A stretch of DNA of 64,000 nt from Scatophagus argus (taxonomy: Eukaryota > Chordata > Actinopteri > Scatophagidae): positions 1,397,001 through 1,461,000 of the forward strand of contig NC_058496.1 of NCBI RefSeq assembly GCF_020382885.2, read 5' to 3'. Both the position numbers and the translations under genes were made by a program. The notes below the pieces were generated by a model. The model saw nothing but the letters and a program-made list of their open reading frames with translations, searched no databases and was not told where the DNA came from. Each line of letters opens with the position of its first letter. Position 1 is the first letter of the stretch. Below are positions 2,700 to 63,591 of this stretch, in pieces.

Positions 2700-3060
2700 A
2701 AATGACTAATTAAAACCAAACTGATCAGAAAAATGAACACTTAAACAAACACTGAGAACTACCTAAAATGACAGAAACCATGTTTGGTGAAGAAGGATTA
2801 GCTGACGTACTTGGAGTTTTTAGTTTGGCTCGTGCCTAATTACCTAATTATTACCACCTGTTCATAATGCCTCCCTATTTATCTGTACACAAGTAATTTA
2901 CCACAAACTGCACTACTGATTAGATGATAAACCACATTTCGTTGCCCTGTATTGTGTAATGACAATGAAGTTGAATCTAACCTAATCTAATGTCTCATCT
3001 GCTAACATGGAGGGGGAGGAGTTTATGAGCTGTACTGCAGCCAGCCACCAGGGGGCGCCC
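2700..3060 (+). repeat. Dispersed repeat, copy 1, interrupted by a nested insertion
   Basis: Two blocks, about 2740-2832 and 2993-3060, match the region 35386-35530 in reverse complement. The shared text includes a run beginning CTGCTAACATGGAGG and ending near a CCACCAGGGGGCGC motif. In this copy the blocks are separated by about 158 bp absent from the other copy, so a retroposon fragment landed in it. No coding capacity was seen; the transposon class is unknown. Confidence 0.6.
2833..2990 (+). mobile_element. Retroposon 3' fragment (LINE/SINE tail) nested in the dispersed repeat
   Basis: It ends in a segment of the type TGTGTAATGACAATGAAGTT followed by short CTAAT-type repeats, a common 3' end of teleost LINE-mobilised retroposons. 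It is an insertion relative to the related copy near 35.4 kb, which supports retroposition rather than shared ancestral sequence. Confidence 0.6.
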
Positions 3061-4560
3061 AGATGTTTTGACTTCATTTTTGTTGAGTTCTCTCCAGTGT
3101 CTTTTTATAATGTCTTTATATTGTCCTCTAATTCCTGAATGAAATGCCTGGATCTTTAGCAGCTAGATGCTTCGCTGTGTTCGCCTGCTAGCTGTTAGCT
3201 TTGTCAGTAGCACGTCGTGCTGATGAGAGCTGTGAGACTGTGGGAGGCAAAACGTTGAGCTGAAACATGATGTAAACCCTGCCGGAGGGTTGGAGGGTGA
3301 TCATTCTCTGTGGGTTTGTCACTCAGTACATGAACTGTGTTTTTCTGTAATACTCTGCAGTATGTGCTGCTCCCAAAAGTCACATTTAAACAGAAGAGCA
3401 CCAGGGTGAGCCTCGGTGTCACATGTGATCTGTGAAACTGATGGGGGTTGTTTGTCATCCGCGAGTACCCGAGGCACTGTGGCATTTGTTCTTGGCCGGG
3501 GTTATTTAAAGCCTCAGGGGATTTATAGGACTGTGTTGCGGTGATGGTGTCAAGGATCACTTGAGCTTGGTTCTTGTTCTCTGGTACTGCAGAGGGAGAT
3601 GGTCTGCCCGTCCTTCGCTCACTGAGTCACACAATGCGTATGGATTTAAGGTTGCTACGACAGAGGAGTTAAAGGAAAAATCAAAGCACATGATCAATAC
3701 AGTTTGTGTGTTTGTTCTCGGATGATGAATTACACTTCATATTCAGATTTGTATTGTTAGCTTTTCTTCCTTGCACAAGATCATTGATACCAAACAGAAT
3801 AAATATCACGTCACATAAATCGTAAATCACACGCACATTCACACCACAGTAAACGCCCATTTTTCAACATGTGCAAACACACTCCTGTAACATCACCGCC
3901 ACGTGTGCAGCTTTTGATTGGTTTATTAGTTTGATTAATTAGTTCATCAATTATCTCACTCTCTGCTCCGTTCAGTCTGCATGTACAGTACATGCATGCA
4001 TTAGGATCCTTATCGCAGCCTGACACGTGGGATTTACACGATCTAATATAAGGCCAGTGCTGAAAAGTGTCGGCACAGACTGACCTCCTCACAGCCGGAA
4101 GGTTCAGGTTCGTCCCTGTAAATCTTTGTTTTCACACTGGCAGCCCAGGGGAGCCGAAGACACGAGCATCCAGACACATCCTGTCCTGATCCCACTGTAA
4201 CGCACTGGAAGTTTACATAGAAATGTGGCAGGCTGCGTTGTTGTTCACCTTACGCTGTAAAAACTCAGGAAGTAGTCCTTCTCTGCTCTCGTTATTGATA
4301 GAATTATTGTTACATAACTTAAATGCTCATCTCTATCCTACAGTCAGACATCTTTTATCTTTCATTACAGGACTAAGCTGATATTAGCACAATACCAAAT
4401 TAACTACAAGTAACAAGAAGAACATCATTTATTTTAGCATAATTCATTCATGCAGCCTGGTTGTTATGTTGACTTTCTTCTGCCTCTTATTTTATTTCAT
4501 GTCCTCTAGCTTTTGTTCAGGCCTCTGAATAATATAAATATGGCCAAAAAACGTTATCCA
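3061..4560. other. Intergenic sequence, no gene seen
   Basis: No supported exon, RNA gene or clear repeat was recognised. Open frames of about 90-118 codons on the - strand have no domain or splice support. Confidence 0.35.
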
Positions 4561-9677: not shown

Positions 9678-10781
9678 ATGGAGCTGCAGCACAACACCAA
9701 TCACAACCAGGCCCTGTGGAAGGAGATACCGTGGGATATCACCGAGGACTGCTCGCTCTCGGTCAGCGGCCCCACTTTTCTCATCGTGGCGTACAGCACG
9801 GTTATGGCAGTGGGTCTCATTGGGAACTCTTGCCTCGTGTTTGTCATCACACGGCAAAAGGAGATGCGTAACGTCACCAACATCTTCATCGCCAACCTGT
9901 CCTGCTCCGACATCCTCATGTGCATCGTGTGCCTGCCGGTCACTATTATCTACACGCTGATGGACCGCTGGATCCTCGGAGACGCCCTCTGCAAGCTCAC
10001 GCCCTTCATCCAGTGCATATCAGTCACTGTGTCCATCTTCTCCCTCGTCCTCATCGCCATGGAGCGCTACCAGCTCATTGTCCACCCGACGGGATGGAAG
10101 CCTGTGGTGGGCCAGTCCTACTTGGCCGTGGCCGTCACCTGGGTCGTGGCCTGCTTGATCTCGGTGCCTTTCCTCTCGTACAGTGTGCTCACCTTGCCGT
10201 TCCAGAACCTGAGTGTCCCCTTCCCGGTCAGCGAGCACCTGGTTTGCATGGAGAGGTGGCCGTCGCTCCAGCAACGGCGCGCTTACACCACCTCGCTGCT
10301 CATCTTCCAGTATTTCCTTCCTCTCGCCCTCATCATGGTCTGCTACCTGCACATCTACCTGCGCCTCAGAAGGAGGAAGGACATGGTGGAGCGCGGCAGG
10401 AACGCCACTCAGAAGAAAAACAAGGGCACCACGAGGATCAACGTCATGTTAATCTCCATCGTGGTGGCTTTCGCTGTCTCCTGGCTCCCCCTCAACGTCT
10501 TCAACACGGTCTTTGACTGGAACCACGAGGCCATCCCGTCCTGCGGCCACGACATTATCTTCTCGTTCTGCCACCTCACGGCCATGGCGTCCACCTGCGT
10601 CAACCCCATCATCTACGGGTTCCTCAACAGCAACTTCCAGAAGCAGCTCAAGTCCACCCTGTTGCGATGTCGCTGCTGGGGGGTGGAAGAGAGGTACGAG
10701 AGCGTCCCGCTCTCCACCGTCAGCACCGAGGTCACCAAGGGGTCAATCCTGAGCAATGGATCTATCAGCGTCAACACTTAG
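9678..10781 (+). CDS. npy8r: Neuropeptide Y family receptor, Y8-type (Y1/Y4 subfamily GPCR)
   Basis: Intronless 367-codon reading frame for a class A GPCR that binds NPY/PYY peptides and signals mainly through Gi in the plasma membrane. Seven hydrophobic segments are visible. TM1 starts near residue 34 and contains GN; TM2 has LSCSD; TM3 ends in MERY, an E-R-Y version of the DRY motif; TM6 has SWLPLN; TM7 has NPIIY. Cysteines before TM3 (DALCK) and in extracellular loop 2 (HLVCM) can form the conserved disulfide. An NLS glycosylation site lies in loop 2, and a CRC cluster after TM7 fits palmitoylation. Assignment to Y8 rather than Y4 is by inference: its neighbours gnrh1, kctd9 and fgfr1 mark the chromosome-8 paralogon, where teleost Y8 genes are expected. 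I cannot choose between the teleost a and b copies. Y4 remains the alternative. Confidence 0.85.
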
Positions 10782-19108: not shown

Positions 19109-20021
19109 GCCCCGGCTGCTTCCCTCTCAGCCCAAGTCTTCACTGCAGGGGCTCACAAAGTGGGATTAAGCAACACTTAGTGGTGACCTGCAGAGCTGTT
19201 TAAAAGATTACACCTGATGTGTGATTTCTGCCCAAAAGAGCAAGTTAGACTGCAAACACCTACAGATTCTACAGAAGGTGAACCGTGTGAAATCATCCAA
19301 CAGGACGTTTGTTCTTACCAGGCACTTTTTAATGTTGGAGCTTTTCCAGCTGTTAGCCTTGAATCTTTGCAAGGTATTAGAGCTTGTTGCTGGAATTTTG
19401 TTTTAATGATTCTGAGCAACTTGATGCTTTAAATCAGAATTAGCAGGACTTTAAAGCTGTTTGAGAAGTAGTTCTGTTCATGTCGTGGTGATCAAAGTCA
19501 GAATGTTCATTTCAAGCATATTAACAACAGAAATGTGTGTAAAGATGGAGGCCATGATTTAGTACTTAGTATATTCCGGAGCATTCAGCCTAATTTTGAG
19601 CCGATCTTTTGAGTCACGTCCACAGATGGTAATGCAGCAGTGGTTGGCCGCGTCGCCTCGCTGTGAGGAGGTCGTGGGTGTCGGGTGTACGTGGTGACCC
19701 GTTCAGGGCGTAGCCGATTCTGAAATTTCCTCTTTGACCTTTTGGTCATCACTGCACCATTTTATCCTGTTAGATATTTATGTGAAATGTTGTGACCTTT
19801 GACCTCCAAAATCTGATCAGTTCATCTTTGAGTCCGAGTGGACGTTTGCGCTAAACTTGAAGAACTTTCCTCAAGACGTTCCTGAGATACGACGTTCATG
19901 ACAAAGAGACGAACAAACGGAAACTCAACAGCAGTCAGGGCAGGACACCTTAGATTTCATGTACAAAACACCTGAGACACAACAAATGATTAACACAATC
20001 GCTTTTTCTTCTTCATAGCAG
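19109..20021. promoter_or_regulatory. gnrh1 upstream interval between kctd9 3' end and the TATA box
   Basis: No gene in this interval; it must contain the proximal gnrh1 regulatory sequence. I did not identify individual transcription-factor sites with confidence. Confidence 0.4.
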
Positions 20022-20027
20022 TTTATT
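20022..20027 (-). terminator. kctd9: Polyadenylation signal candidate of kctd9
   Basis: AATAAA on the - strand, about 1.2 kb after the stop codon, giving a long 3' UTR without other genes in between. Confidence 0.55.
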
Positions 20028-21228
20028 TATAACAGTCATTTACGGAAAAAGATTTCCACGGTCGAGTGCAATAATCACAGACAGGGAGGCCTCGGCTGCT
20101 CCTCCGTCTCAAACACAAGCCGACTTTTGCTCCGTATTGCATTCGGTGAGATGCATCAAAATAAATAAGCGGAACTCGTCCATCGATTCCCACACTCAGT
20201 CGCACAGTATGATTGCCTTCATGGTTCGTCCTCACAGACTGGGTACCTAGTGTTGAACTGAGCGAACAGTATTGCATCAGAGCTGCAGCTCTTCACACAT
20301 GCAGACGTCCAGCAGAGAGCTCAGGTGACAGCACCTGCCCGCTCTAACGACCATTCGTTTACAGAAGATTACGAGCACCAAACATTTTTGGTGATAAGGT
20401 ATAAACAAGTTAACGTATGCTTGTGCAAATAAGTTCAAAGCACGATTAAGTGACATTACTTCGATACGTGGGAGTTACGCTGCCAGGCAAACCCGCTTCA
20501 ACACGTGAAAATGGCTTCCTGTTAGAAGTCGGGGTCGGAGTGATGAGTAACACAGAAGCATTACGATAAAACGGGGCCACAGTCGCATGCATGTGGATCA
20601 CTCTCACACAACAAAAGAGGTAGATTCACAGAAAAACAAGGGAAAGCTTTTGGAAGAAGACAATAATTCAGAGGAGGAAGGTCACAGCTGTGAATCCTGT
20701 ATTGCATACCCCAGCTGTGTTTCAGACGAGCCTGTCGCATAGTTTTATGGTGCACTCGCAGCACTGCCTCACACTCTGTGCTGCTGTTATGGCTTTGGCT
20801 TGCATCACTTCCTTTGCAGGAGGTCGAATCCAGCAGAATTAAGTTCAAGAGTAACATAGAAGTTATTGGTAAGTGACCTTCTGTTTCTGCTACGGCAGCA
20901 TTCAGCGAAGCTCTGAACTTTACTGCACACAGATCACCGACACATCAAGTCATTTGAATGGTGTCGAACACGAAACGAGTACAGTCATCTACAAACACTG
21001 AGAACATTGTGTTGTTTTGGTGATGTACGCAGATGAACATTTAAAATCAACCTACCGTACAAACATACAGAGACAACCCTGAATAAAGTCTAGTGCAAGG
21101 TAGTTAAAGCTAACATAATATCGGTGGAATGGCAGGGGTGTGCATACAGCTACCTGCACCGCAGACAGGTAAAGAGAGAGAGGAAGGAGGGGGAAACGCT
21201 GGAGGAGAAGAGCAACAGAGGAGCCGAG

Positions 21229-24392: not shown

Positions 24393-25252
24393 TCTTTAGG
24401 CGCTTTGGCTGTAAGTACTTTGTTACAATTGCACCAATGATGTGGCGTTTGCCAGCTAACGCTTGCCTGCAGATTCAAGCTGGCTAGCTAGCAGTCTTAG
24501 CTGCATCAGACCACAACACGAGACAAAAGAGGCGTTCGATTGCTATCGGAAAACAAAGAGTTTGAAGATGCATATTTATACAGCACTCCCAAACTCAGTT
24601 ATGAATAAAAGTGTGCTCTCGCGGCCACATTTACAATTACACTTTTATTTATTACTTAACTGTCAGGTACAAAATTTGTACTAATGGCAATGTTAAAGAA
24701 ACGTCATACCGTCAATTAATAAAATGAAGAGTAGGTTTTTAGGATCAAATGTAAAAAATGGTCCATCGCAGCAGTGTAACAGCTATTCATCATCGTGCCG
24801 CTACAGCACAAAGTTTTGTGCTGTCTTTGTTTTCCCCAAATAAATCTGACACTACAAACTCAAAAAATCAGATAGTCCCTGAATGGCACACCCGGACTGC
24901 AGCCGTGCCATTGGCCGGAATGTTCATACGTAAGCACGTAACACGTTCGTTTAATCCGTCTGGTGGTTTGGCGCAAGCGTTTAGCCATCCTGAAGTTTCT
25001 TTCGTACTGACTAACACAAAGCAGCCTGTCGTCAGCTTGTACTTTAGTTATTAGACAACATACATTAGTCATTCGGTTAAACATTATCTGGATTCTTGTT
25101 TTTGTTATTTCTAGCATGTTTGTCTGGAAGCTAATCGAGCACCAAAGAAGAAGAAACACGGAAATGTCAGACAGCGTAATGTTGATTCATCTCCGTATCT
25201 CAAAAACTGCTGTCCAGTTTCCGGTCTGAATCGGTTTGCAGCTGTTAGCACG
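24393..25252. promoter_or_regulatory. Shared divergent promoter interval of kctd9 and ankrd39
   Basis: Only about 860 bp separate the two start codons, which point away from each other, so both promoters must lie here. No TATA box is obvious. A small upstream reading frame precedes ankrd39 (25164-25229). Confidence 0.6.
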
Positions 25253-26389: not shown

Positions 26390-27556
26390 CATTCACTTCA
26401 ATAAGTGGACGTGGCAACAGTTTCCGGTCTCCTCTGGAGTAACGTAGAGCCGAGTGGTGCCGTTTTCAGACTCGTGAAGCTGCACTGAGCTTTTGTTGAT
26501 GGCTCCACTGTGGAATCAGCCTGGCAACCAGATTTCTCATTTCAATAGTTCTGCTGAGCTACGGACAGGAACGAGTCAAGCTCCTCTTCAACCTGCTATG
26601 TGAAGAAATTATTTGACTTTAAAAGGACAGAAAATGACACATGAATAATAATGTCCTCACAATAATTTGTGCAGCGTTTTGAGTCAGAAAGCTCCTTGTT
26701 AGTGGCTTTGGGGTGATGAGTTGGAGCTACTTTATGCACTGCAAACACCAGCATCTACTCTTTCTACTGCATTAATGACTGTTTGCTCTGAACATGTCTG
26801 ACAAAGCAGTTTGTATTAACATTGGAGCTTTAAGTTAAAGCTCCTGTGAGGTGATCCTCCCTGGATGTCTGAATGTGTGGCAGCAGGGGGCGCTGCTGCC
26901 CTAAAATCTGCCTGTGTGTTTTTCTCTGTGCACCATTTAAATTATCTGGCAGCTTCCACACACTGACCTCATCTGATCATCCTGCAGGAGAGCTGAACAG
27001 GAAGAGAGAAAAGCGTCTGAGTAGCTGTTAGAGCTGGCAGAGAGACATCATGGACCGACGCCAACAAATCACTGCGGCAGATTAAATGAAGTTATTCTAC
27101 GTTTGTATCATCGGACATGTTTCAGAGTTTGAATTACTTTATGAAAGTGGGCCTCAAAGTGCAGCCATCGTATGATTGAGGACTGTCCTCGTATCCCGAG
27201 TTCTTTACGCAGAAGTCTGTCCACAGACTGTTTTAAGTTTGATTACAGTCACACACAGGCAATAGCAAGAAACTTCATGGCCTTTAAATCCTGTCTGAAC
27301 CTTTGAATCGTTTGAGATCTTCCACCAGTGGTCGTCTGCCTTCTCCAGAACCCACGCTGAAAGGCCACCCCTGACTCAGCCTGTTCTCAACAGGCCTCTA
27401 CATCAACAAGCAGATCCTGAACTCATCAGAGCTGCGTGCTTATTTTATTTCGGGTTTTTTTGTGTAATAAGTGCTCCATGACTAAACCTCATCAGTGAGC
27501 TTTTCTTATCTAAAGCTTGTGTGCATATCAATGGCGGACGACAAGTGAACTTGTGC
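26390..27556. other. Intergenic sequence before the inverted repeat
   Basis: No gene seen. Contains one copy of a dispersed repeat (26871-27005). Confidence 0.4.
26871..27005 (+). repeat. Dispersed repeat, related to 34984-35115
   Basis: Shares GAATGTGTGGCA, CAGGGGGCGCTG, TGGCAGC(C/T)TCCACA and TGACCTCATC(T/C)GATC in the same order with 34984-35115. Class unknown. Confidence 0.65.
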
Positions 27557-29779
27557 TGGAGCTCAGCTGCAGCGGCGCACACAGCTGATTAAAAGTTCCT
27601 CAGTGTGATTTCTAACAACAGTCTGGTATGATGGGACCTCAATATATGATCCCAAACGCTTAATTAATTGTCCTGTGACTCATATGGTTCAGCTTATGGG
27701 TTGTTTGTCTGGCTCTGCTTTTGAGAAGATTACATCTCCATAATCAATAAAAAGAAGTTCAACCATCCACCAGTGTCTGGAAGAAAGAAAACATCTGGGA
27801 AACTAAACTTTCCCTCTCAAATACAGCCACAATAACACAAAAATCACAGCATGTTCACGGAGCACAATTTCCTGGGGAAACTTTCACATGATTATGGTCG
27901 CTGGGACGTTGACGTACGTGGACGTTTTGACGCTGTCCAGATGTCTTAGTCTCATTTTAGTCCAAGTGTGGCTACAGGAAGCCAAATTCCACTGACATGT
28001 CTTCCATATCCAATATTAAAAAGGCTGGCTGATCTGTGATGATGTGTTTTTCAGCTATAAAGCTAACAAATGTGTTAATTACTCCCACAGAAACGTGTAT
28101 CACGCCGTCCTGGATCAGCCGATGAGCCTGACATTCCCACCGTCACAGTGCTGATTGGCTGGCGGAGCTGAGCTGCAGCCTCTGGACTCTGGACTGGTTC
28201 TCGTCACCCGCCGACCTGGAGAGCAGGAGCGAAAGATCTGCAACATCACTTCAACCGGCAGACAACATGCTGCTTTGAAGTGGGAGTGGACCCAAATTGG
28301 ATTATGCAGCATCTCCGCGGAGCAGCTCTCCTAGATTTGATTACCGCATGGCCCCCCCTCAGCCCACACCCACAATCCTGCCTCCCCCATGCAGATGAGA
28401 TGACGTGAGGCCGCCTCCCCCCTTTGCAGAGTCTGGTGCCTCGCTTCTCAGTGTGCGCCCATCTGCCAGCCATTTACCTGATTACTCTGGGACGACCCAG
28501 ACAGGTCGGGCTCTGCCAGGGTGGCATTAATGTTGTACAGGTGGACACAGGAAAGATAAGGAGCCTTTAATCTGGGAAAACAAGCATCCACATATCACCA
28601 AAATGGAGAGAATTAACATCTGCTGCAGTGGAATACAGTTGAGAGTTACATACTTTGTGGTGTGGAACTACAGCATTAATTCTACAGCTTAGACATAAGT
28701 GTCACCTGGGCGAATGCACAGAACGGACAAGCTGTGGTCTTCATCCACAGTCAGGCTAATGTTTAAAACCCCAAACTCTGACTGCAAATACTCCACGCAA
28801 GCATGGCACACAGACCACCTTCTATTTCTGAGGAAAATAACACGCAGTCCTGGTTTAACTTGGGCTCATTATGGTGGAAGTGGGTTCCAGGGCCAGGAAG
28901 TTTCATTGCTTTCCAAATAAATCTCACTAAACAGAGCAGGAATCCAAATTCCTCATCTTGTGGAGCCTTCGCATTACGAGGAGGCTCTCCAGAAAGCTCT
29001 CGGCCTAAAAATCACACCTCATCCTTCCAGATATCACTTGTTGTAACGTTTGCACCGACGGCACTGAGTTAAGTCGTGCAGTTAATGACCGAAAATGGTG
29101 GAAAATGTCTTCTCCTCTTAACAAAGCTGCTGATTTTCACCCAACAAAGGCCCGTTTCTGATTGTTGCCACATAAAGGGGCAAAGCAGCTCTCAAATTCA
29201 AACCAGCTCATGAGAAATTTTCAAAAAGACTGAGGCCCTTTAATATTGCTCTGGTTTGGCCACGTGACACAGAGGGTTTTCATTACCTCGCTCACTGCGA
29301 GCAAATTCAAGACGTCGGCTTTGATTGTGCTACATGGAACCTGGCAGGAGAACAATGGGAAGGTGCTGCGGGTGTGACGGCGTGGCTGCTCCGATTCAAA
29401 CAGCATCGTGTGCTTTGTTGTGAGAGCGAACAGGGACGTCTTCTACCCAGTCAGCTCAGCGAGCAGTGAAAACAGGCTGAGAAAAGCCCTGCTATTACTG
29501 ACATGTGGCGCTCAGAGCGGGCCATCCTCGTTCCAGCTCCTCAGCTGTGTGGAAGGAGGAACTCGTCACTAAACAGCCTGACTAAAACACCCCCACCCCA
29601 CCACGCCTTCCCCCCGACACCCCATCTCCTTGTGCTGTGTGGCGTCAGCTGCAATGAGCTCCAGATGTGGCCTGGCACCCCTCCAGTCACGGCACTGGAT
29701 GTGGTTTGAAGGTAGTTTGGAAACACCACCCACCAGCGGACCCAATGAAAGTTCTTCAGACTGCAGCGAGAGCTTTGCG
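27557..29779 (+). repeat. Large inverted repeat, left arm (2.2 kb)
   Basis: The whole arm is the reverse complement of 36295-38519. Reading both arms I noticed only three substitutions and one 2-bp indel, so identity is well above 99%. The edges are sharp: the left match starts at TGGAGCTCAG and the inner match ends at AGCTTTGCG. No gene is recognised within the arm; the open frames on both strands recur in the other arm and have no domains. Confidence 0.97.
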
Positions 29780-30433: not shown

Positions 30434-30456
30434 TCACGGCTGCACCACTGGTTCAG
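30434..30456 (-). CDS. Last exon of the FGFR1-derived locus
   Basis: After a pyrimidine-rich TTTGGTTGCAG acceptor, a phase-1 reading adds seven residues (AEPVVQP) and stops. It replaces the transmembrane exon of the parent gene, which starts with A-V-P. Only splice-site and phase logic support it. Confidence 0.45.
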
Positions 30457-33400
30457 CTGCAACCAAACAGAAGAGACAGACAGAGGGGGGTCAGTTCTTT
30501 GGACCTCCGCTGCTTGTAGAACAGGAAGTAGCAATCAAGGTTAAAAATGGAAATCCAGAAGAGAGACAGAACCACTGATACCTTCCAAAACGGTCAACCA
30601 TGCAGACTGATAAGAGATCCCGATAGAATTGCCTGCCAAGCAGGTATACTCCCCGGCGTCATCAAAGGTCACATTTCTCAGTTGGAGGACTTCCATTTCC
30701 TTGTCCGTGGTGTTAAGGCCAGCGGTCTAGAAAAATAACAAAGGAAGCAGACCCAACAAGAGGCCCAAGAGGGGAAAAGAAACCATGAGTGAAGGACTCT
30801 GAAAGAAGAGGATGGAGGAGCGTTCTTCTCCGCCATCCAACACCACCTGCCCCCAAAAGTCCCACCGAGAGCCCCTGCAGAGGACGAGCTCCTACCTTGA
30901 GGACACGGACGTACGGTAACCCATCAGGGCCAACTCGGCTCCCGTTGACCTCGATGTGCTTCAGCCACTGGATGTGAGGCTGAGGGTCGCTGAACACCTT
31001 GCACTCAAACTCCACGTCGCTGCCCACCACCGCGGTGCAATCAGCTGGCAGTCCGGCCTGCATGATCGGCCTGTGGGGAGAGCGCTCTGCAGCACGGGAA
31101 GCAAACACCAGACCCAACATCAGAGACAACATCAGAGCCAGAATCAATATCAAACACATGCAGCGATTCAAGCTGACAAAGTAAACCTACAACTGGTCAA
31201 GGTTGTGTTACTGGAAACAGCCGATTGCTAACAAGGTCGCTTGTATAATGTGATGAAGAGGTCCTAGAGGGGAAAAATCCCTCCTCTCATCATGGATCCA
31301 TCACCCAAGGAAACAGACTTAATCTATCAGTCTGTTTTAACCTGTGGCTCACCTGGTGGAGCCTTGTGTTGGGGTCTGGTCTTGGTCCTGGAGGCCCGAC
31401 TTCGACCGCAGCTTTTGGCCCTTTGCCGCGTCTTGTCGTCTCTCCGGCTCCCCTGCCTACCCTGCCCGTCTCCTGGAGTCAATATACAAGTGAAGTAGAA
31501 ATACCAAAAGCAAAAACCCTTTAGAAAAACTTTATTGTTCTTTTGAGATAAGGATCACCTTTGATTGATTGATCATATTTGTGAAATCAATCCAACACCA
31601 GAGCCTAATGAATGTTCATGATAATATAAACTGTAGAAGGTAAATGTGATTACTGCCTTAAATGCGTCGTGACTGATCTGACATTTTGTAGCCTCATGTC
31701 AGTGTGATGTTATTATGTAAAACTACCAAGGTGCCATGTGGACTGAGGTGTACCATCACACCCCGAACCAACACCAGCGACTCAAATGAGCTGCACTTGG
31801 CCGCTGCCCATTCCAGTCCTCAGGAATGAGACACGTCCACGACAGCGCAGATGATGTTTAAATTATGCCCACACACCATAAAATGTTGCCTCAGTAGTTT
31901 TCTTATTGTGCTTTTTTAAAGCATTGTTAGGTCGGCATTGTGGGCCACCACAATAAGAGTAGTCAGAATATGTTGATTAAGGAATGACATGATGTTCTCT
32001 GCAATTAGGTGGAAAAATATATGGGAATACTGGTGTCAGCAATCGACCAAAATGAGTTGGAAAATATCTTTAACTTCAGTATTGTGCATCCCAAGCTCAC
32101 GATCAGCTGTTGTCACCAAAACTTTTATGTATTTCTTAGTGGAGCAAACCATATTTGGCACCAGACGTGGGGTTGGAAACTTGATAAAATGGAAATGTAG
32201 GCAAGAGACAGAACCACTGATACCTTCCAAAACGGTCAACCATGCAGACTGATGAGAGAACCCGATAGAATTGCCCGCCAAGCAGGTATACTCCCCAGCG
32301 TCATCAAAAGACACATTTCTCAGTTGGAGGACTTCCATTTCCTTGTCCGTGGTGTTAAGGCCAGCGGTCTAGAAAAATAACAAAGGAAGCAGACCCAACA
32401 AGAGGCCCAAGAGGGGAAAAGGAACCATGAGTGAAGGACTCTGAAAGAAGAGGATGGAGGAGCGTTCTCCTCCGCCATCCAACACCACCTGCCCCCAAAG
32501 GTCCCACCGAGAGCCCCTGCAGAGGACGAGCTCCTACCTTGAGGACACGGACGTACGGTAACCCATCAGGGCCAACTCGGCTCCCGTTGACCTCGATGTG
32601 CTTCAGCCACTGGATGTGAGGCTGAGGGTCGCTGAACACCTTGCACTCAAACTCCACGTCGCTGCCCACCACCGCGGTGCGATCAGCTGGCAGTCCGGCC
32701 TGCATGATCGGCCTGTGGGGAGAGCGCTCTGCAGCACGGGAAGCAAACACCAGACCCAACATCAGAGACAACATCAGAGCCAGAATCAATATCAAAGACA
32801 AACACACATGCAGCGTCAAGGTTGTGTTACTGGACACAGATGGCAAACAAGGACACTGATGATAGAAAAGAGAGGCAACATCACAGTGCAACTGATGACG
32901 TTTCCATCATAACAGGATTCTTTTTTCATTTCTGTCCTGTTTTCAGGAAATTTGTTAACAAATTAAGTGTGAATAAGGAAGTAAATAAAAGTAGAATTTA
33001 AAAAATAGCCAAACTATTTTCTGCAACCAGCTTCCTGTTGACACCAGCACGCACATGCCCAGTAGGGCTGCAACTAACCACTATTTTCATTCTCAGTTAG
33101 TCTGCTGATTATTTTCACAATCCATTAATGTTTAGTCTGTAAAATAATTTAATAAAGTGGAAAATCTTCTAAGACACTGGAACCAACAAATATTTGACAT
33201 TTTTGCTTGAAGAACAACTGAATTAACTTATTATTAAAATAGTCCGCTATCAAACGGGCGGACGGAGACAGTTTTCACGGAGTTTCTAAAACAACTAAGA
33301 TGATTTACGAAGATGTTAAGTATCGCTTGACCTGATGTTCTCCATCGGTACCTCAGGAAATCACCTGACCGTTTCTAAGATGGAACAGAAACAGAGTCGG

Positions 33401-33505
33401 TTTCTGAGTCATCTTACCTCCACCGACGTTGGCAGGCCGGCCCTGGGTCCTGAACACCTGGGCGAGTAAAGCCAGAGACAGAAGGACAGGTGGCCTCGTC
33501 AGCAT
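30434..33505 (-). CDS. Predicted secreted FGFR1-derived protein with two Ig III (IIIc) domains
   Basis: A rearranged partial copy of fgfr1a. Exons by homology and splice sites: 33505-33418 (signal peptide), 32728-32538 and 32368-32224 (Ig III copy B), 31472-31353 (basic linker), 31086-30896 and 30726-30582 (Ig III copy A), 30456-30434 (last exon, stop TGA). The total is 903 bp, 300 residues and stop. All junctions are GT/AG; the module boundaries are all phase 1 and no stop or frameshift interrupts the exons. Ig I, acid box, Ig II, transmembrane and kinase exons are absent, so the product should be secreted. Each Ig III keeps its cysteine pair (EFECKV, YTCLAG). The exon chain is a conceptual assembly: skipping variants would also stay in frame, and a recently formed pseudogene remains possible. 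No function is shown; ligand trapping or modulation of FGF signalling is an inference. Confidence 0.6.
30582..31086 (-). CDS. Ig III module copy A (IIIa 31086-30896, IIIc 30726-30582)
   Basis: Both exons have the same lengths as in fgfr1a (191 and 145 bp). The intron is only 169 bp and lacks the IIIb exon. Compared with the parent, an Asn-X-Thr glycosylation site is lost (LPANRT has become LPADCT), creating an extra cysteine. In IIIc the residues after NSIG also differ. It shares its upstream intron and the intron deletion with copy B, so the pair arose by tandem duplication after the deletion. Confidence 0.8.
31353..31472 (-). CDS. Candidate novel basic exon (40 codons)
   Basis: Bounded by a TTGACTCCAG acceptor and a GTGAGC donor, 120 bp, open in the phase-1 frame used by its neighbours. 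It encodes about 13 Arg/Lys in 40 residues, including [12 protein letters not shown] and [10 protein letters not shown], and a single cysteine (KSCGR). No counterpart was found in fgfr1a within this window. The composition resembles heparin-binding retention exons of growth factors; that is a comparison of character, not homology. Expression is unproven. Confidence 0.45.
32224..32728 (-). CDS. Ig III module copy B (IIIa 32728-32538, IIIc 32368-32224)
   Basis: By hand alignment IIIa differs from fgfr1a at only four of 191 positions and IIIc at two of 145. The short intron between them is also nearly identical to the parent intron ends. The NRT glycosylation site of the parent is DRT here. The downstream intron still follows the fgfr1a sequence for about 50 bp, then diverges. 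Confidence 0.82.
33418..33505 (-). CDS. Signal-peptide exon of the FGFR1-derived locus
   Basis: Encodes [18 protein letters not shown] and ends RPANVGG in phase 1 at a GTAAGATG donor, exactly parallel to exon 2 of fgfr1a (48902-48989), including the GTAAGATG donor. By hand count about 12 of 88 positions differ, much more than in the Ig III exons. Confidence 0.8.
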
Positions 33506-33853
33506 CCTTCTGAGGGAGCTACAGCTGCGACTAGAAGTCCTTTCAGACCTTCAGTGAGAAGTTTGTCCCTTGATTTGAGAGAAACTTTACTGGTTATGTT
33601 TGGTAGTTCTGAGCCTGTGACACCTGAAACGGACTCTGGGGTCTCTGAAGACCGCAAAACACGTGAGTTTTCCAAGAACGTGTAATTATTTTCTGAAGGA
33701 AAACAGGATGTTGAATGTCAGGAGTGAAATACCTGCTTGAGCCAAAAAAAATCTTAAACATGACGTTCTTCGGTGAAATATAAATTATTTCATTTAGCAG
33801 TAAAAGCAGTGAAGAGAAGCTGAATCAATGAGTGAAGGAATAATAAACTCACC

Positions 33854-34654
33854 TTACAGGACAGGTAAGAAGACTCCCGAGCTGACTGGATGCAGAAAAA
33901 CTTTCCAGATCCAAACCAGATTTCAAACGAAGCTCACTAATCCACACTGTCAACGTTTGGCCAATCCTAACTGAACTTCACCTGTTAACTCTGACCACGC
34001 GCATCTTCCGGACCAACGTCAAGGTGACGACGGTAACAGAGACAACTTCCGGTGTCCAATCTTTAAATAAAAGCTAGCATGAGCAACACCTAGCAAAACG
34101 AAATGTCACGATAAAGTTTCTTACGACTCACTAGTTAGTTGTACTTTGTGAATTCTTAAGATTGTGCTAACTCACGTATAAAACACGTTTTAGACGTAAG
34201 CCAAGGACAGAAAATGGAGCGAACATTATCTCTGTTGTGTTACCTGCTCCTCTAGACTGCAGTCGCATAAATTGTTTTCTTTATTTTACTTAATTTAACT
34301 CGAGTTTACGTTGGGATTCATTTGTCGTTTTCCAAAGTGTCCGCTCGTTAACCTCCCCTCTCATAGGAAGGCAGATAATGTTGATATATTTACACAGTAT
34401 ATCCCCCTCCATATTCGGTATATCATATTGTTTAATGTTATGTTTGTTGTTTGGGTCCGCAGCGCACCATATTTGCTGCACATAACGCAATGTTTTTTCC
34501 GTGTGACGAAAATGCTTTTATTCTGAATGTCACTTAGCCGGAAGTTCCACAGGATCAATGCTGTGACTTTCCGACTGGACGCAGGTTGAGCCGGGCTGGT
34601 GGAAACCTGGCTCCACCAGTCCTGCAGAGCTCCACCAGCTCTAAACACTGACAT
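33854..34654 (-). promoter_or_regulatory. Duplicated fgfr1a promoter and first exon, inverted
   Basis: Read on the - strand, this segment follows the order of 43640-45084. First comes 'ataattatttctaat', then 'ggagccaggtttccaccagc' and 'cagaataa', then 'atatggag', then ACCGGAAGTTGTCTCTGTTA and TTGACGTTGGTCCGGA. The first-exon end CTGTAAG sits before a GTGAGT donor at 33852. The ETS-type ACCGGAAGT is kept at 34045-34053; the GCCGCCATCTTG (YY1-like) block of the parent is altered. This suggests the locus inherited a promoter, but activity is unknown. Confidence 0.7.
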
Positions 34655-34983
34655 TAGAAATAATTATAGCATTACTGCCATAGTGGGTTCGACCAGGAGT
34701 ACAAATAAAACGTTAAATAAACATGTGTTGTAGTGTTTAATGCTTTGTTTCATGCCAAGCATAACATTAAAATTAATCTGATCTAAAAGTCATAAGGTTT
34801 ATTATAACTACACTAAATAGTCCAATAGTTCAAAATCGTAAAAACTAACAAAATTGCGCATACATTCCGTGTATACTACATACGAGGAGCGGACCGGTGA
34901 TCAGCCTGACTCTCCCACTCCAAAAGCAGATGATCCTGCTGTTTACATCCGTCACTACTGTGAGGTGGTTTCCGCCGGGTTTT

Positions 34984-35115
34984 TGAATGTGTGGCACCAG
35001 GGGGCGCTGTTGTCTTAAAAGCTGCATCTTCAAAGCTGTTCATTCAGGGCACCATGTGAAATTGCTGGCAGCCTCCACAAAGTGACCTCATCCGATCCTC
35101 CTTCTGGAGAGCTGA
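34984..35115 (+). repeat. Dispersed repeat, related to 26871-27005
   Basis: Same ordered motifs as the copy left of the inverted repeat, on the same strand; diverged. Confidence 0.65.
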
Positions 35116-35385
35116 ACGGGGTTAGAGAGAAGCTGGGAGAGCTCACACTAAGACACTGTGGATGGATATCAGACAATCACTGCCACAGACTGAATGTTTG
35201 TAAAAGTAAATTTGGCACGTCTGTATATTTAGGCAAGTTTTATAATTTCACATAGTGTATATGGACACTCCTGCAACTGCTGTTTATGTCCAAGCGTTTT
35301 AGCTCATACTTACTTAGGACCCCTAGCTGTGTATAAAAATGGACAACATGAGAGCTCTCTTGAAGTGAAGTCAAAGCATCTGGAC

Positions 35386-35740
35386 TGCCCCCTGGTGGCT
35401 GGCTGCAGTACAGCTCATAAACTCCTCCATGTTAGCAGATAGGACAAAAGACAAACTAAAAACTCAAAGCACATGTCCAATAAATTTTCCCCAAAGATGG
35501 TTTCTGTCACTTTAAGTAGTTCTTATCTTGCTTGAGTTCATGTGTTCATTTTTTGATAAGTTTGGTTTGGTTCGTTATTTGATGCTATAAAAAAGGGCTG
35601 AAATGTCATGATTGACAACTGAGAACTGCTCTTGACTGGTTCAGACGGGTGTATGGGTGGGAACTCGTTACTGTAGCTCCACCTCCCGATCACTGCTGCA
35701 CAGATTCTGGCTCCAAATGACATCACCATAACAAGATGGC
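35386..35740 (-). repeat. Dispersed repeat, copy 2 (uninterrupted)
   Basis: Reverse complement matches 2700-3060, without the nested insertion. Its far part (35640-35740) also matches the family at 4561 and 42301, so several of the window's repeats may be pieces of one longer element. Confidence 0.6.
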
Positions 35741-36294: not shown

Positions 36295-38519
36295 CGCAAA
36301 GCTCTCGCTGCAGTCTGAGGAACTTTCATTGGGTCCGCTGGTGGGTGGTGTTTCCAAACTACCTTCAAACCACATCCAGTGCCGTGACTGGAGGGGTGCC
36401 AGGCCACATCTGGAGCTCATTGCAGCTGACGCCACACAGCACAAGGAGATGGGGTGTCGGGGGGAAGGCGTGGTGGGGTGGGGGTGTTTTAGTCAGGCTG
36501 TTTAGTGACGAGTTCCTCCTTCCACACAGCTGAGGAGCTGGAACGAGGATGGCCCGCTCTGAGCGCCACATGTCAGTAATAGCAGGGCTTTTCTCAGCCT
36601 GTTTTCACTGCTCGCTGAGCTGACTGGGTAGAAGACGTCCCTGTTCGCTCTCACAACAAAGCACACGATGCTGTTTGAATCGGAGCAGCCACGCCGTCAC
36701 ACCCGCAGCACCTTCCCATTGTTCTCCTGCCAGGTTCCATGTAGCACAATCAAAGCCGACGTCTTGAATTTGCTCGCAGTGAGCGAGGTAATGAAAACCC
36801 TCTGTGTCACGTGGCCAAACCAGAGCAATATTAAAGGGCCTCAGTCTTTTTGAAAATTTCTCATGAGCTGGTTTGAATTTGAGAGCTGCTTTGCCCCTTT
36901 ATGTGGCAACAATCAGAAACGGGCCTTTGTTGGGTGAAAATCAGCAGCTTTGTTAAGAGGAGAAGACATTTTCCACCATTTTCGGTCATTAACTGCACGA
37001 CTTAACTCAGTGCCGTCGGTGCAAACGTTACAACAAGTGATATCTGGAAGGATGAGGTGTGATTTTTAGGCCGAGAGCTTTCTGGAGAGCCTCCTCGTAA
37101 TGCGAAGGCTCCACAAGATGAGGAATTTGGATTCCTGCTCTGTTTAGTGAGATTTATTTGGAAAGCAATGAAACTTCCTGGCCCTGGAACCCACTTCCAC
37201 CATAATGAGCCCAAGTTAAACCAGGACTGCGTGTTATTTTCCTCAGAAATAGAAGGTGGTCTGTGTGCCATGCTTGCGTGGAGTATTTGCAGTCAGAGTT
37301 TGGGGTTTTAAACATTAGCCTGACTGTGGATGAAGACCACAGCTTGTCCGTTCTGTGCATTCGCCCAGGTGACACTTATGTCTAAGCTGTAGAATTAATG
37401 CTGTAGTTCCACACCACAAAGTATGTAACTCTCAACTGTATTCCACTGCAGCAGATGTTAATTCTCTCCATTTTGGTGATATGTGGATGCTTGTTTTCCC
37501 AGATTAAAGGCTCCTTATCTTTCCTGTGTCCACCTGTACAACATTAATGCCACCCTGGCAGAGCCCGACCTGTCTGGGTCGTCCCAGAGTAATCAGGTAA
37601 ATGGCTGGCAGATGGGCGCACACTGAGAAGCGAGGCACCAGACTCTGCAAAGGGGGGAGGCGGCCTCACGTCATCTCATCTGCATGGGGGAGGTAGGATT
37701 GTGGGTGTGGGCTGAGGGGGGGCCATGCGGTAATCAAATCTAGGAGAGCTGCTCCGTGGAGATGCTGCATAATCCAATTTGGGTCCACTCCCACTTCAAA
37801 GCAGCATGTTGTCTGCCGGTTGAAGTGATGTTGCAGATCTTTCGCTCCTGCTCTCCAGGTCGGCGGGTGACGAGAACCAGTCCAGAGTCCAGAGGCTGCA
37901 GCTCAGCTCCGCCAGCCAATCAGCACTGTGACGGTGGGAATGTCAGGCTCATCGGCTGATCCAGGACGGCGTGATACACACGTTTCTGTGGGAGTAATTA
38001 ACACATTTGTTAGCTTTATAGCTGAAAAACACATCATCGCAGATCAGCCAGCCTTTTTAATATTGGATATGGAAGACATGTCAGTGGAATTTGGCTTCCT
38101 GTAGCCACACTTGGACTAAAATGAGACTAAGACATCTGGACAGCGTCAAAACGTCCACGTACGTCAACGTCCCAGCGACCATAATCATGTGAAAGTTTCC
38201 CCAGGAAATTGTGCTCCGTGAACATGCTGTGATTTTTGTGTTATTGTGGCTGCATTTGAGAGGGAAAGTTTAGTTTCCCAGATGTTTTCTTTCTTCCAGA
38301 CACTGGTGGATGGTTGAACTTCTTTTTATTGATTATGGAGATGTAATCTTCTCAAAAGCAGAGCCAGACAAACAACCCATAAGCTGAACCATATGAGTCA
38401 CAGGACAATTAATTAAGCGTTTGGGATCATATATTGAGGTCCCATCATACCAGACTGTTGTTAGAAATCACACTGAGGAACTTTTAATCAGCTGTGTGCG
38501 CCGCTGCAGCTGAGCTCCA
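36295..38519 (-). repeat. Large inverted repeat, right arm (2.2 kb)
   Basis: Reverse complement of 27557-29779. The spacer between the arms is 6,515 bp and contains the whole FGFR1-derived locus. Beyond 38519 the two flanks are unrelated. Confidence 0.97.
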
Positions 38520-39957: not shown

Positions 39958-42300
39958 AATGACACCATATGGCCTGTTAGGTCGTGCACGCTGCTTTGCA
40001 CGACGCCACTGAAGTAAAAGGAAATGATATGTATAATAATAATAATAATAATAGGTCATCAGACAAAAACTTTGATCAGCTGGATAACAGTATGATCTGA
40101 ACGTGATGTATATTCCTTGTCATACATGAAGTTTAAAAAGCAGGTGAAGACAAACTCTGATTCTTCAATCAGACAGCGCTGGAAACGTACCGGCGATGAT
40201 TCAGTGTTGATTACTCACAGCTAAAACAATGCAGCTGACACCACATTTGTTAAGAGGGCTTCTACATCACCAGACAACAGCAGCGACAATTCCTCACCCC
40301 TGGAACACAACGCCGGGCTGCACGTGTAATTGAACAAGATGGTTACGCTCCCTCTGTCAGCAGGTGCCCGGCACACACTGGCCCATTCATATGCGCATTC
40401 CTGTCTCTCCACTCGCAGCCCAGCAGGTTCCTCCCCGGCCACTCAGGACAGGGGCTGACGCACACAAAAGGGTCTTCAATCTGCCTCAGACAACAGCCAG
40501 CATAAAGGCCCGGAAAGCCACAACAGCGTTATGTCAAAGAGTAGGCTGGGGGTGGTGAGCCGAGCTTGGGGGGCCCCGTGTAGACCAGGGGCACTGCTGA
40601 CGGATGGATGAGGGCTGGGATGGGGCTACGTAATGGAGGGCCTGTCTGAGGTTTTCATGCATCTAAAAGAGGATATTTGTACTTGCCCAGTGACAATGGA
40701 ATGCAAACACGACTAGCGAGGACAATAAAACACCACCTTGGGGCGATGAAGAAGCTGCTAGGGAAATCATCATGCAAAGCATCCCTGGGGGAGATATTGT
40801 TCACTCTGAGGGTTGCATGACTCTCTGTTTGTTCTCATGCTGATGTGTGGCTCAGCCTGCCTTCGGTTTGCCTTTGCATGAGGCTTTAACAGTGTCCGGC
40901 ACATTTCCTTACGCTGAAAGGAAGCGAGGAGTGATCAGAAATGCCCCACCTCAGCTTAAAACAGATGGAGCTTTTTGTCTGAGCCAACTGACTTTAAAAC
41001 CTACTGGTCCTCAGATCAGTTAACCACCTGAGCATATTTTTAGCATTTCCTCACAGGTGCAACATGACCGCAGTGTGTAAATATTCATCCAAATCACAGG
41101 CTTTGTGCCCCTCACTTTATCGCCGCTCTGTTAAGTCCTGTGGGTGAGCTTGCCTGTGTGTTTGTTGAGCTACTGTGGCATGTACACGTCACAGAGACAA
41201 GTTAATAATTAATGATGGAAGCCTTTTTAAATTAGCCTCACATACACCGAGCTTCGCTCTCCTGTGTGTCCCAGGAAAGAGAAAAATAGAAAGTCTGTCT
41301 CTTCTGTGTCTCTACAAACAACCAAAGACCATCTTTTATTGGCCTGCAATTACTTTTTTATTCTCCCTTGTCTGTTTACCACCCAAAGCCGTCGCTGCTC
41401 TGAAATATCTCTCACCTCCTATCAGCAGAAGGAAGCAATCAGCAACCAAAATGCATAAACAATCACCATATGTTTTGAGTTCTGCCAAGGCCTTCCCGTC
41501 CTGCACTGAAACGATCATTAACAGCTCGATGCACATCTAAACCAAACACCTCATCAGTGACACAAAAAAGAAAAAAGAAAAGTATATAAAATGTCTGCTT
41601 CCATACTGCTGTTGCATTTAAGATCTTCAGTCGCGTTTGGATGCACTGAAGCCGTCAGATGTGGCTGATGGCACATTTAACTCTCACTATTAGTTACCCT
41701 AATAAACATGCTTGCTGTTTCTCTGGTATGAATGTGGTTTTCAGATTCACACTCCATCTGCTGCAAAGTCAGCAGCTCTCTTTGAAGCTGCGAGTTAATT
41801 TAAGCCAAAAGTACATTTGCAAAGCAGTTTAGAAATGTTAAAAGCAAGAGACGTCTGACCAAAGACGGTATGTCCTTTGGCAGCGCTGTTACTCACTATA
41901 ATTAATAGTCAACGTTTTGGGATAGAGCCAGCTAGCTTAGCACAAACATCCATCTAAGGCTTTCCTGGCTTTGTGTAACAATAACGAAATCTGCCTACCA
42001 GCAACTCTGAAGCTCACTAATTAATACTTCATGTCTTGTTTTTGAACACGTTGTTGGGTGTTATGTGTGCTGTGTGGTAACTATAACGGAAATGCAAGCA
42101 GCCAAGTTAGCTTAGCACAAAGACTGGAAACAGGAGTTTTTACTTCCTGGTGTCTATGCTAGTCGCCTGGCAATCTCACGGTGATTACAAAATTTGTTGT
42201 GAAGCCACTGCAGATACTGCAGTCACTAAGGTGAGGTCTTAAACTGTTGTTTACTATACAAAAGCAAAGACAAAATATCCCTTATATGAGCCTTGCTATC
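39958..42300. other. Intergenic sequence with MITE-like remnants
   Basis: No gene seen. Includes a TAA microsatellite at 40032-40052 and GCTAGCTTAGCACAAA-type transposon remnants at about 41900-42160, of the family also seen near 15 kb. Confidence 0.45.
40032..40052. repeat. TAA microsatellite
   Basis: About seven ATA/TAA units. Confidence 0.9.
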
Positions 42301-42360
42301 CTGTTCTGGTGATGTCATTTGGAGCCAGTGGAGCCACGGTATCGAGTTCCCGCCCATACA
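42301..42360 (+). repeat. Dispersed repeat fragment (GGTGATGTCATTTGGAGCCA family)
   Basis: Shares its core exactly with 4577-4596 and, inverted, with the copy near 35.7 kb. Confidence 0.65.
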
Positions 42361-42466
42361 TCCGCCGGAGCCAATCAGGAGCAGCACTCAGCTGTCACAT
42401 TTCATCCCCTTTTTGTAGCATCAGTTTAAAATGTGAATTTTAGGTGGATACAGTATCAACACAGCT

Positions 42467-43639: not shown

Positions 43640-44410
43640 ACGATGGAATGTAACGCAGCAGTACTATAATTATTTCTAATCACAGTATTAGCCGCTGTGT
43701 TGTGTACGTCTCCAATCCCACAATGCAAAGAGCGCGGTGTGGAGAGCTGGTGGAGCTCTGCAGGAGGGGTGCTGTGGATGGCAGGGGGAGCCAGGTTTCC
43801 ACCAGCCCGGCTCAACCTACGTCGAGCTGCAAAGTAACAGCATGAATACTGTGGGACTTCCGGCTGGGTGGCATTCAGAATAATAGCCACACCTTCGTCA
43901 CACACGCCAAACGTCTTTTGGAGCCAAACAAACAAAAAAAAGACAACAACATAAAATTAAACTATGTGATGCACTGAATATGGAGTGAATATACTGTGTC
44001 AAGATGAAGCACTTTTGAAAATCCCTGCCTTCATGATCCTCTCATTAACACACAGACATTCCTGTGTAAACTCGATTTCAACTAAGTCAAACAAGAAGAA
44101 AACATTTTTGTGACTACAGTTTATAGAAACAAAATCACAAAATAACTCTCCGTGTTTTGACTTTCTGTCTTCCATGTTGAATGGCCAAATAGTCAAAAAA
44201 AGTGTTTTAGACGTGAGGAAGCATCAAGTGTTAAAGAATGCGGGCTATACATAATGTTTAACAAGGCACAATTAATTAGTTAGTCATCTATAGTCGTTTC
44301 TGTCCAAAAAAATTATCGAGACAATTGTCCATTTTGCCAAGTGTTATTCACGTTAGCTTTTATTTTAGAACCAGGCACCGGAAGTTGTCTCTCTTACTGC
44401 CGCCATCTTG
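43640..44410 (+). promoter_or_regulatory. fgfr1a: fgfr1a promoter region
   Basis: Contains an ETS-type ACCGGAAGT at 44377-44385 and, 14 bp downstream, GCCGCCATCTTG at 44399-44410, a YY1-type site. The pair is typical of TATA-less vertebrate promoters near the start site. The entire segment has a diverged inverted copy at 33.9-34.65 kb, which supports its extent. Confidence 0.6.
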
Positions 44411-45084
44411 ACGTTGGTCCGGAGGATGCGCATATTCTCAGATTTAAGGGGGGAGGTTTGGAGCAGCCCGGACTCTCTCGTTGTTTAAGCGTTTCTCCGC
44501 CAGGAATGATCCGAAGACTTTCAGGGATTCGTTTGAGTACCCGTCTTTTGTAAAAAATACAGCTCCCAGCGACATCTCGTTTTCGGATATTTTGTTAGGG
44601 CGAGTTGAAGAACTTTAGGACGCAGTTTTCGGAGGTGAGCGGACTTTCCATCGCGGTCGAGACGTTTTGGGATAAAGGGACTACCAGAAAGTAGCCTGCC
44701 GCACGGACTGCACTCGGACTCGCTTAGGTCAGCTAGGTGAGATACAAGGAGCCCGTCGAAAAGGAGAGACGAGAGCCCAACGTTAAAATAAAAAGCTAAC
44801 TTTTCTTCTGTCCGCTCTTTTGATTTTTGGGGGTTTTTCGTCGTGGCGGACGCGCATTCTTCTTCTCCTCCTCAGCCTCACAAGTTTGGCAAAAAAAATG
44901 CGCAGACTTGTTAGCCAAACGCTGATAGCGTGGAGTGAGTGAGCTTCGTTAACGGGCCACACGTTGGAAATCTGGATTTACTGTTGTCCTTTTTTCCCCG
45001 GGACGTTTTTGTGCATCTAATCTCGGCTCAGGAGTCTTGTTATCTGGCCGTCTGTGGCTGCTTCACGGCCCCCCCGGCAGTAAG
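44411..45084 (+). other. fgfr1a: fgfr1a 5' UTR exon 1 (approximate start)
   Basis: G/C-richer sequence ending at CAGTAAG followed by a GTGAGA donor at 45085. The same exon end and donor exist in the inverted copy at 33853. The start is estimated from the ETS/YY1 motifs. Confidence 0.55.
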
Positions 45085-48813: not shown

Positions 48814-48901
48814 GGCTGTGGATGAGCCGCCGCTGATGCCCCAAAGGTCTGAATGGAGTTCGAGTGGCAGCGGAGCCAGCAGCTGTAGCTCCCTCAGCAG
48901 G

Positions 48902-63591
<14,690 letters not shown>

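Follow-up and report, generated by a model that had tools for sequence, protein, structure and literature searches.

Locus and gene model

The window analysed here comprises 64,000 nucleotides of Scatophagus argus (contig NC_058496.1, positions 1,397,001 to 1,461,000; C4:1397001-1461000 in our genome numbering) and contains no N. It includes the fibroblast growth factor (FGF) receptor gene fgfr1a, from its promoter to the start of the kinase, and, in the opposite orientation, a partial duplicate of this gene, here called the copy. The two lie head-to-head with their conserved promoter cores about 10.3 kb apart. The minus-strand coding region of the copy (33505-30434), when rebuilt from its splice sites, consists of seven coding exons which form a single frame of 300 codons plus stop and specify a signal peptide, an immunoglobulin (Ig) III domain of the IIIc type, a basic linker, a second Ig III domain of the same type and a short tail. 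We refer to the first Ig III exon pair (IIIa and IIIc) as N1 and to the second as N2 (Table 1). Comparison with fgfr1a makes it very probable that the copy originated by duplication and that gene conversion acted on it afterwards.

The exon junctions named in a first-pass annotation of this DNA (33418/32728, 32224/31472, 31353/31086, and 30582/30456) were reproduced exactly when the frame was rebuilt, as was its series of seven exons in one open frame; all six introns are GT-AG and the phases are consistent. That annotation had described every exon as recognizable by homology or splice logic, which holds, with the linker and the last exon recognizable by splice logic alone. Splice sites were scored with a weight matrix and compared with the 348 GT and 300 AG sites in 5 kb. 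The linker donor is strong (only one GT site scores better), its acceptor is mediocre (36 AG sites are better) and the last-exon acceptor is intermediate (18 better), while the signal-exon donor ranks among the best in the 5 kb. At the IIIc donors, which are weak (38 GT sites score higher), the six intron bases are nevertheless those of fgfr1a. The first-exon donor at 33853 (GTAAG|GTGAG) is also present in fgfr1a at 45080. Since the Ig III exon pairs and the linker begin and end in phase 1, the linker or N2 could be skipped with the frame kept.

Table 1. Features of the copy, the flanking repeat and the parent gene (window coordinates).
Feature	Position	Strand	Basis or remark
Left arm of inverted repeat	27557-29779	+	99.7% to 36295-38519 over 2225 columns
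Putative last coding exon with stop codon	30434-30456	-	acceptor and frame; no homology found
IIIc (Ig III second-half exon), N2	30582-30726	-	95.0% to fgfr1a
IIIa (Ig III first-half exon), N2	30896-31086	-	97.8% to fgfr1a
Old intron remnant	31268-31330	-	fgfr1a 58407-58473, upstream of IIIa; 76%, 67 columns with gaps
Putative linker exon	31353-31472	-	120 bp, phase 1-1, 40 residues; splice logic and open frame only
Old intron remnant	31745-31843	-	fgfr1a 60958-61093, downstream of IIIc; 92% of 39 and 82% of 55 columns
IIIc, N1	32224-32368	-	97.6% to fgfr1a 60087-60453
IIIa, N1	32538-32728	-	98.2% to fgfr1a 58922-59145; PDB FGFR1 match
Signal-peptide exon, coding part	33418-33505	-	ATG at 33505; homology to fgfr1a
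Non-coding first exon	33853-33964	-	donor at 33853; 5' limit approximate
Promoter region of copy	33974-34648	-	two blocks homologous to fgfr1a promoter: 34648-34386 to 43737-44005 (71%), 34114-33974 to 44313-44458 (76%)
Right arm of inverted repeat	36295-38519	-	6515 bases from left arm
Parent fgfr1a, promoter to start of kinase	43737-64000	+	translations and exon ends; runs off the right end of the window
fgfr1a signal exon	about 48901-48990	+	translation
fgfr1a Ig I	near 54.1 kb	+	translation
fgfr1a Ig II	near 55.5 and 57.5 kb	+	translation
fgfr1a IIIa	58944-59134	+	
fgfr1a IIIb	about 59318-59465	+	
fgfr1a IIIc	60246-60390	+	
fgfr1a membrane helix	near 62.2 kb	+	

Predicted protein

A transcript of the copy is predicted to encode a secreted protein consisting of an FGFR1-type third Ig domain (D3c), the linker and a second D3c: a signal peptide can be read from the sequence and no hydrophobic helix follows it. 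Sequence matches place its Ig III domains in the FGFR family. FGFR chains were the top phmmer matches, the best in the PDB being FGFR1 to FGFR3 (FGFR1 chain, E value 1.9e-66), and Pfam found the I-set domain twice. Together with the homology to fgfr1a, this bore out the domain order, the IIIc type and the fgfr1a source given in the first-pass annotation. Over the 112 residues of human FGFR1c D3, 95 are identical in fgfr1a, 93 in N1 and 91 in N2. The translation of fgfr1a shows a signal exon, Ig I, an acid box, Ig II, IIIa, IIIb, IIIc, a membrane helix and the kinase start, whereas the frame of the copy holds two Ig III domains only and does not have the full architecture of an FGFR receptor tyrosine kinase. 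Ig II, the membrane anchor and the kinase, which had already been described as missing, are absent from the frame, and nothing in the copy locus showed homology to the fgfr1a exons that encode Ig I, Ig II, the membrane helix and the start of the kinase.

The start codon, splice dinucleotides, Ig cysteines and all 300 codons are intact. If cleaved after residue 21, which is an assumed site, the mature part has 279 residues and an isoelectric point (pI) of 6.8; the linker carries a net charge of +10 over 40 residues (pI 11.9). The protein contains six N-glycosylation sequons. Cysteines 58-122 and 210-274 presumably form the Ig pairs, and additional cysteines are found in the linker (163) and in N2 (198). 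N1 and N2 have three replacements in common (L to M, N264 to D, and H to Q), and fgfr1a alone has changed L to F at 359, near the IIIc end. The residue numbers R250, N264, V295, L342, 349, and 359 follow what we take to be the human numbering.

Origin by inverted partial duplication

The copy is collinear with fgfr1a in inverted orientation through the promoter, first exon, signal exon, IIIa, IIIc and both outer introns, with E values from 1e-177 to 3e-39 for the Ig III and signal exons, a similarity well beyond chance. First-exon blocks 33964-33926 and 33901-33862 correspond to fgfr1a 44911-44950 and 45005-45046, two first-intron stretches (33857-33688 and 33622-33564) also have fgfr1a homology, and the signal block 33528-33406 aligns without gaps to 48879-49001 (88.6% over 123 bp). 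Upstream, homology extends to 35762-35580, which matches fgfr1a 42273-42423. The first-pass annotation was right to derive the gene from fgfr1a; its scattered "pieces" turned out to be one collinear inverted copy reaching 35762.

Ig III was doubled by a tandem duplication inside the copy, because the interval between N1 and N2 holds first a remnant of the intron downstream of IIIc and then one of the intron upstream of IIIa; sequence of the latter intron is also found at 31210-31183, before N2. The putative linker exon lies at or beside the duplication junction, in the interval from 31745 to 31330. N1 and N2 lack IIIb through the identical gap, in which homology leaves fgfr1a at 59145 and resumes at 60087. 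A BLAST search with 7-letter words and E values up to 0.05 found no remnants of Ig I or Ig II in the copy, and alignment of the intron stretch 32801-33405 to the tested fgfr1a introns likewise found none. Taken together, the homologies show that part of fgfr1a was duplicated in inverted, head-to-head orientation, long ago to judge by the flanks. This duplicate lost or never had the Ig I-Ig II stretch, has lost IIIb and carries a tandem doubling of its Ig III exon pair.

For the linker exon, no local alignment to five fgfr1a intron stretches scored above 20 shuffles each, and for the last exon, too, no homology to fgfr1a introns was detected. The genome (48 contigs, 570.7 Mb) contains the linker region a single time. 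A placement of the linker inside an insertion, from the similarity of 31551-31570 to 58339-58358 (score 30 against a best shuffle of 27, in one of 30 comparisons), was too weak and was not used. In a protein search of the genome, which gave 24 matches, extra Ig III copies were found only beside fgfr1a; strong IIIa matches lay on contigs C20, C15, C14, and C10, one on each. No relatives were found among the IMG/VR viral contigs.

Probable gene conversion of the Ig III cores

The flanks of the copy are much more diverged from fgfr1a than its Ig III cores. Seven upstream blocks show 0.125-0.250 substitutions per site (Jukes-Cantor) and the signal block 0.123. If a neutral rate of 2-4e-9 per site per year is assumed, the flanks date back, as a rough estimate, some 25-60 million years. 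The cores, including their internal intron, are 95-98% identical to fgfr1a. N1 differs from fgfr1a at 4 of 191 positions in IIIa, 2 of 169 in the intron and 2 of 145 in IIIc; the corresponding numbers are 5, 3, and 8 for N2, and 1, 3, and 6 between N1 and N2. When only non-coding core columns were considered (22 upstream and 169 intron positions), 2 of 191 had changed, compared with 33 of 189 in four flanking intron blocks with gaps counted (p = 4e-9) or 29 of 185 with gaps excluded (p = 6e-8). Addition of the 64 columns after IIIc gave 7 of 255 against 33 of 189 (p = 1e-7). One of the four flanking blocks is a weak match (E value 0.010), and flank divergence is understated since the blocks were picked by BLAST.

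Because the intron is as similar as the exons, protein constraint is ruled out as the cause of core identity. The combination of young cores and old flanks suggests that the cores were rewritten at a much later date. The simplest account is gene conversion between fgfr1a and both Ig III cores, which would have reset them to the receptor sequence. A later re-insertion of the core is a less simple reading of the same contrast. N1 and N2 share 50 bp upstream that are absent from fgfr1a and then fall to 85% identity over 41 columns. The shared domain is much younger in sequence than its flanks, the pattern expected of a decoy kept similar by conversion.

The flanking inverted repeat and surroundings

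Two 2.2-kb arms in opposite orientation enclose the copy locus. A genome search, in which both of two candidates were scored, revealed no further arm copies beyond the pair, and among the listed open reading frames (ORFs) the longest in the arms has at most 89 codons. The arms represent either a recent duplication or a palindrome maintained by conversion, and they could invert the copy or serve conversion. Near-identical inverted arms can also mislead assemblers, so that the whole arrangement might be an assembly or haplotype artefact. We regard this as extremely improbable given the many substitutions and indels that separate the flanks from fgfr1a, the fixed-looking changes in the cores and the window's lack of N.

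Stretches within 34955-35621, upstream of the copy, are 75-87% similar to 2658-3079 and 26841-27014 and are probably dispersed repeats. Two intron segments of the copy (32069-31943 and 33243-33056) have numerous genome matches of 75-88% and are probably transposon fragments. Elsewhere in the window, positions 9678-10781 hold an unbroken single-exon frame of 367 codons for a G-protein-coupled receptor, nearest among solved structures to the neuropeptide Y receptor types 1 and 4.

Promoter and transcription

The CpG observed/expected ratio at the promoter of the copy is 1.09 (33854-34353), which places it at the 99th percentile of the window (median 0.52); the promoter of fgfr1a itself has 1.15. 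Values of at least 1.0 were found in 21 of 1270 segments of 500 bp, at four places in the 64 kb: near 19.7 kb, near 24.6 kb and at the promoters of the copy and fgfr1a. The two CpG-rich places away from fgfr1a (19651-20150 and 24501-25200) are possible promoters of other genes. In promoter and first-exon blocks, 12 of 18 fgfr1a CpGs are retained in the copy, compared with none of five in two first-intron blocks (p = 0.014; 8 of 11 against none of five without the farthest promoter block, p = 0.026). This retention suggests that the promoter is alive, since most CpGs would be expected to have disappeared from a dead, methylated promoter. We consider it somewhat more likely than not that the copy is transcribed, and the transcript would start from its own CpG-rich, fgfr1a-type promoter.

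The locus might also matter as DNA or RNA, that is, as a conversion reservoir for fgfr1a, a competing promoter or the source of a transcript from the shared upstream region. The head-to-head layout with the stated distance between the promoter cores, the live-looking promoter, the repeated sequence exchange with fgfr1a and the flanking inverted repeats would all suit such a role, which we nevertheless consider very unlikely: nothing indicates conversion in the direction of fgfr1a, and the L to F change of fgfr1a is not found in the copies.

Coding constraint

Several findings weigh against a working protein. The ratios of nonsynonymous to synonymous changes were 4:2 between fgfr1a and N1 (p = 0.43), 8:5 between fgfr1a and N2 (p = 0.17), 4:3 between N1 and N2 (p = 0.21) and 9.5:2.5 in the signal exon (p = 0.87), so that none of the four comparisons, each with few changes, falls below the neutral expectation. 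In the signal exon, nonsynonymous divergence (dN) is 0.169 and synonymous divergence (dS) 0.110, and although its divergence is lower than that of the flanks, the difference is not clear (p = 0.12 against intron blocks and p = 0.054 against all flanks). The linker, with 65% GC, has no stop in two of its three frames, and 14% of neighbouring 120-bp stretches are open in any given phase. As conversion is recent and few changes have occurred since, the open Ig III exons are uninformative. N2 has gained an unpaired cysteine, and the glycosylation site at N264 is gone from both Ig III copies. The probable signal-exon acceptor is poor (58 of the 300 AG sites are better), and the closest downstream AATAAA/ATTAAA on the strand is 1.2 kb off, at 29244 within the left arm.

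These observations would fit an unprocessed pseudogene, perhaps transcribed, which has no protein function and whose frame is open only through recent conversion of its Ig III exons by fgfr1a. The coding changes in the signal exon and Ig III are neutral-like, few stops are expected given the few changes since conversion, and outside the young cores only the 88-bp signal exon, the stop-poor, GC-rich linker and the 23-bp last exon have had to stay open. On the other hand, we detected no disabling change across the 300 codons, donors and acceptors, and hence no broken frame or splice site; the 123-bp signal exon is free of indels whereas four of the seven other upstream blocks carry 1-8 gap events; and the promoter CpGs have not been lost. 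A pseudogene is a serious candidate, with a probability somewhat short of one half. The chances that the copy is a working gene are roughly even, and a functional protein is possible though rather doubtful. As a claim about a working gene, the word "neogene", used in the first-pass annotation, was not established by the dN/dS comparison, in which coding differences were indistinguishable from neutral ones. The much younger sequence of the Ig III parts, the retained CpG-rich promoter of fgfr1a type and the enclosing 2.2-kb inverted repeats go beyond what that annotation had noted.

Possible function of the protein

Structures of FGFR D3 domains have been solved. In the parts of PMC10284700 drawn on here, D2, D3 and the D2-D3 linker are required for ligand binding; the receptor-binding arm of Klotho holds on to a hydrophobic groove in D3 of FGFR1c-3c and FGFR4, and on the second receptor this groove takes up the N terminus of FGF23. 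In IIIb forms, according to the same source, the groove carries charged residues as well as a site for glycosylation. In both copies the groove residues are hydrophobic, as in IIIc (V295, L342, and F or I at 349), and the IIIb glycosylation site is lacking, which is the combination that these parts of PMC10284700 associate with the groove contact. The window's own IIIb exon encodes K and E at groove positions and an NQS glycosylation site.

An ordinary soluble FGF trap would use the two Ig III domains to bind FGFs and keep them off their receptors. Both copies retain Ig III with IIIc as well as the linker arginine (R250), and the doubling could add avidity. However, ligand binding as described in this source takes Ig II, Ig III and the linker, and Ig II (D2) is absent from both frame and locus, which makes a classical trap unlikely; we consider this explanation quite improbable. 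Since both domains have kept the IIIc pattern, competition at the groove or at D3-D3 contacts is favoured over FGF trapping, if a protein is made at all. Such a protein would compete for contacts in which D3 of IIIc receptors engages independently of D2: at the groove, for the receptor-binding arm of Klotho or the N terminus of FGF23, and perhaps also for the D3-D3 contact between receptors. The basic linker would keep it near heparan sulfate. Given a working protein, we put this mechanism forward tentatively, by extension from human structures to a fish protein. The best overall explanation, a transcribed, conversion-reset duplicate encoding a secreted D3 competitor, is itself tentative, falling somewhat below an even chance. 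It is unlikely that every element of the most specific version applies, namely a lineage-specific secreted mimic of doubled FGFR1 D3c only, in a head-to-head pair inside an inversion-prone repeat, which recurrent conversion keeps matched to its receptor and which acts through the D3 groove on endocrine FGF-Klotho signaling and not directly on FGFs.

Comparison with known systems and implications

The copy resembles FGFR1 (fgfr1a) in Ig III with IIIc, the signal exon, the first exon and the promoter, and differs in having Ig III twice and in that no Ig I, acid box, Ig II, IIIb, membrane helix or kinase was found. FGFR3IIIS, according to the sections of PMC2394287 considered, is likewise a soluble FGFR product without a membrane helix and was suggested to be a dominant-negative modulator, but it is a splice variant of a receptor gene that keeps Ig II and kinase and loses half of Ig III, whereas the copy is a separate gene that has Ig III complete in two copies and lacks Ig II. 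FGFRL1 is a kinase-less FGFR relative discussed as a decoy receptor (PMC12026108 and others, in the portions used); it is an ancient, membrane-bound protein of three Ig domains, in contrast to the predicted secreted product of the copy, which has two Ig III domains and neither a further Ig domain nor a membrane helix. In the CEACAM decoy receptors, the Ig domain of a decoy-type paralogue is homogenized with the parent receptor by conversion (PMC8860441, parts considered). Expression and binding have been demonstrated for those host-microbe receptors, whereas the copy is known from sequence. No described gene of its architecture turned up in literature searches, which covered open-licence papers, in agreement with the first-pass annotation.

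If no protein is made, the locus would be a clear example of conversion keeping a dead fragment gene-like, and a reason for caution in gene prediction. Should the protein be made, the locus would offer a natural test of whether the third Ig domain in an FGFR serves any purpose beyond binding ligand together with Ig II, and would show gene conversion keeping a receptor and a soluble mimic of it alike.

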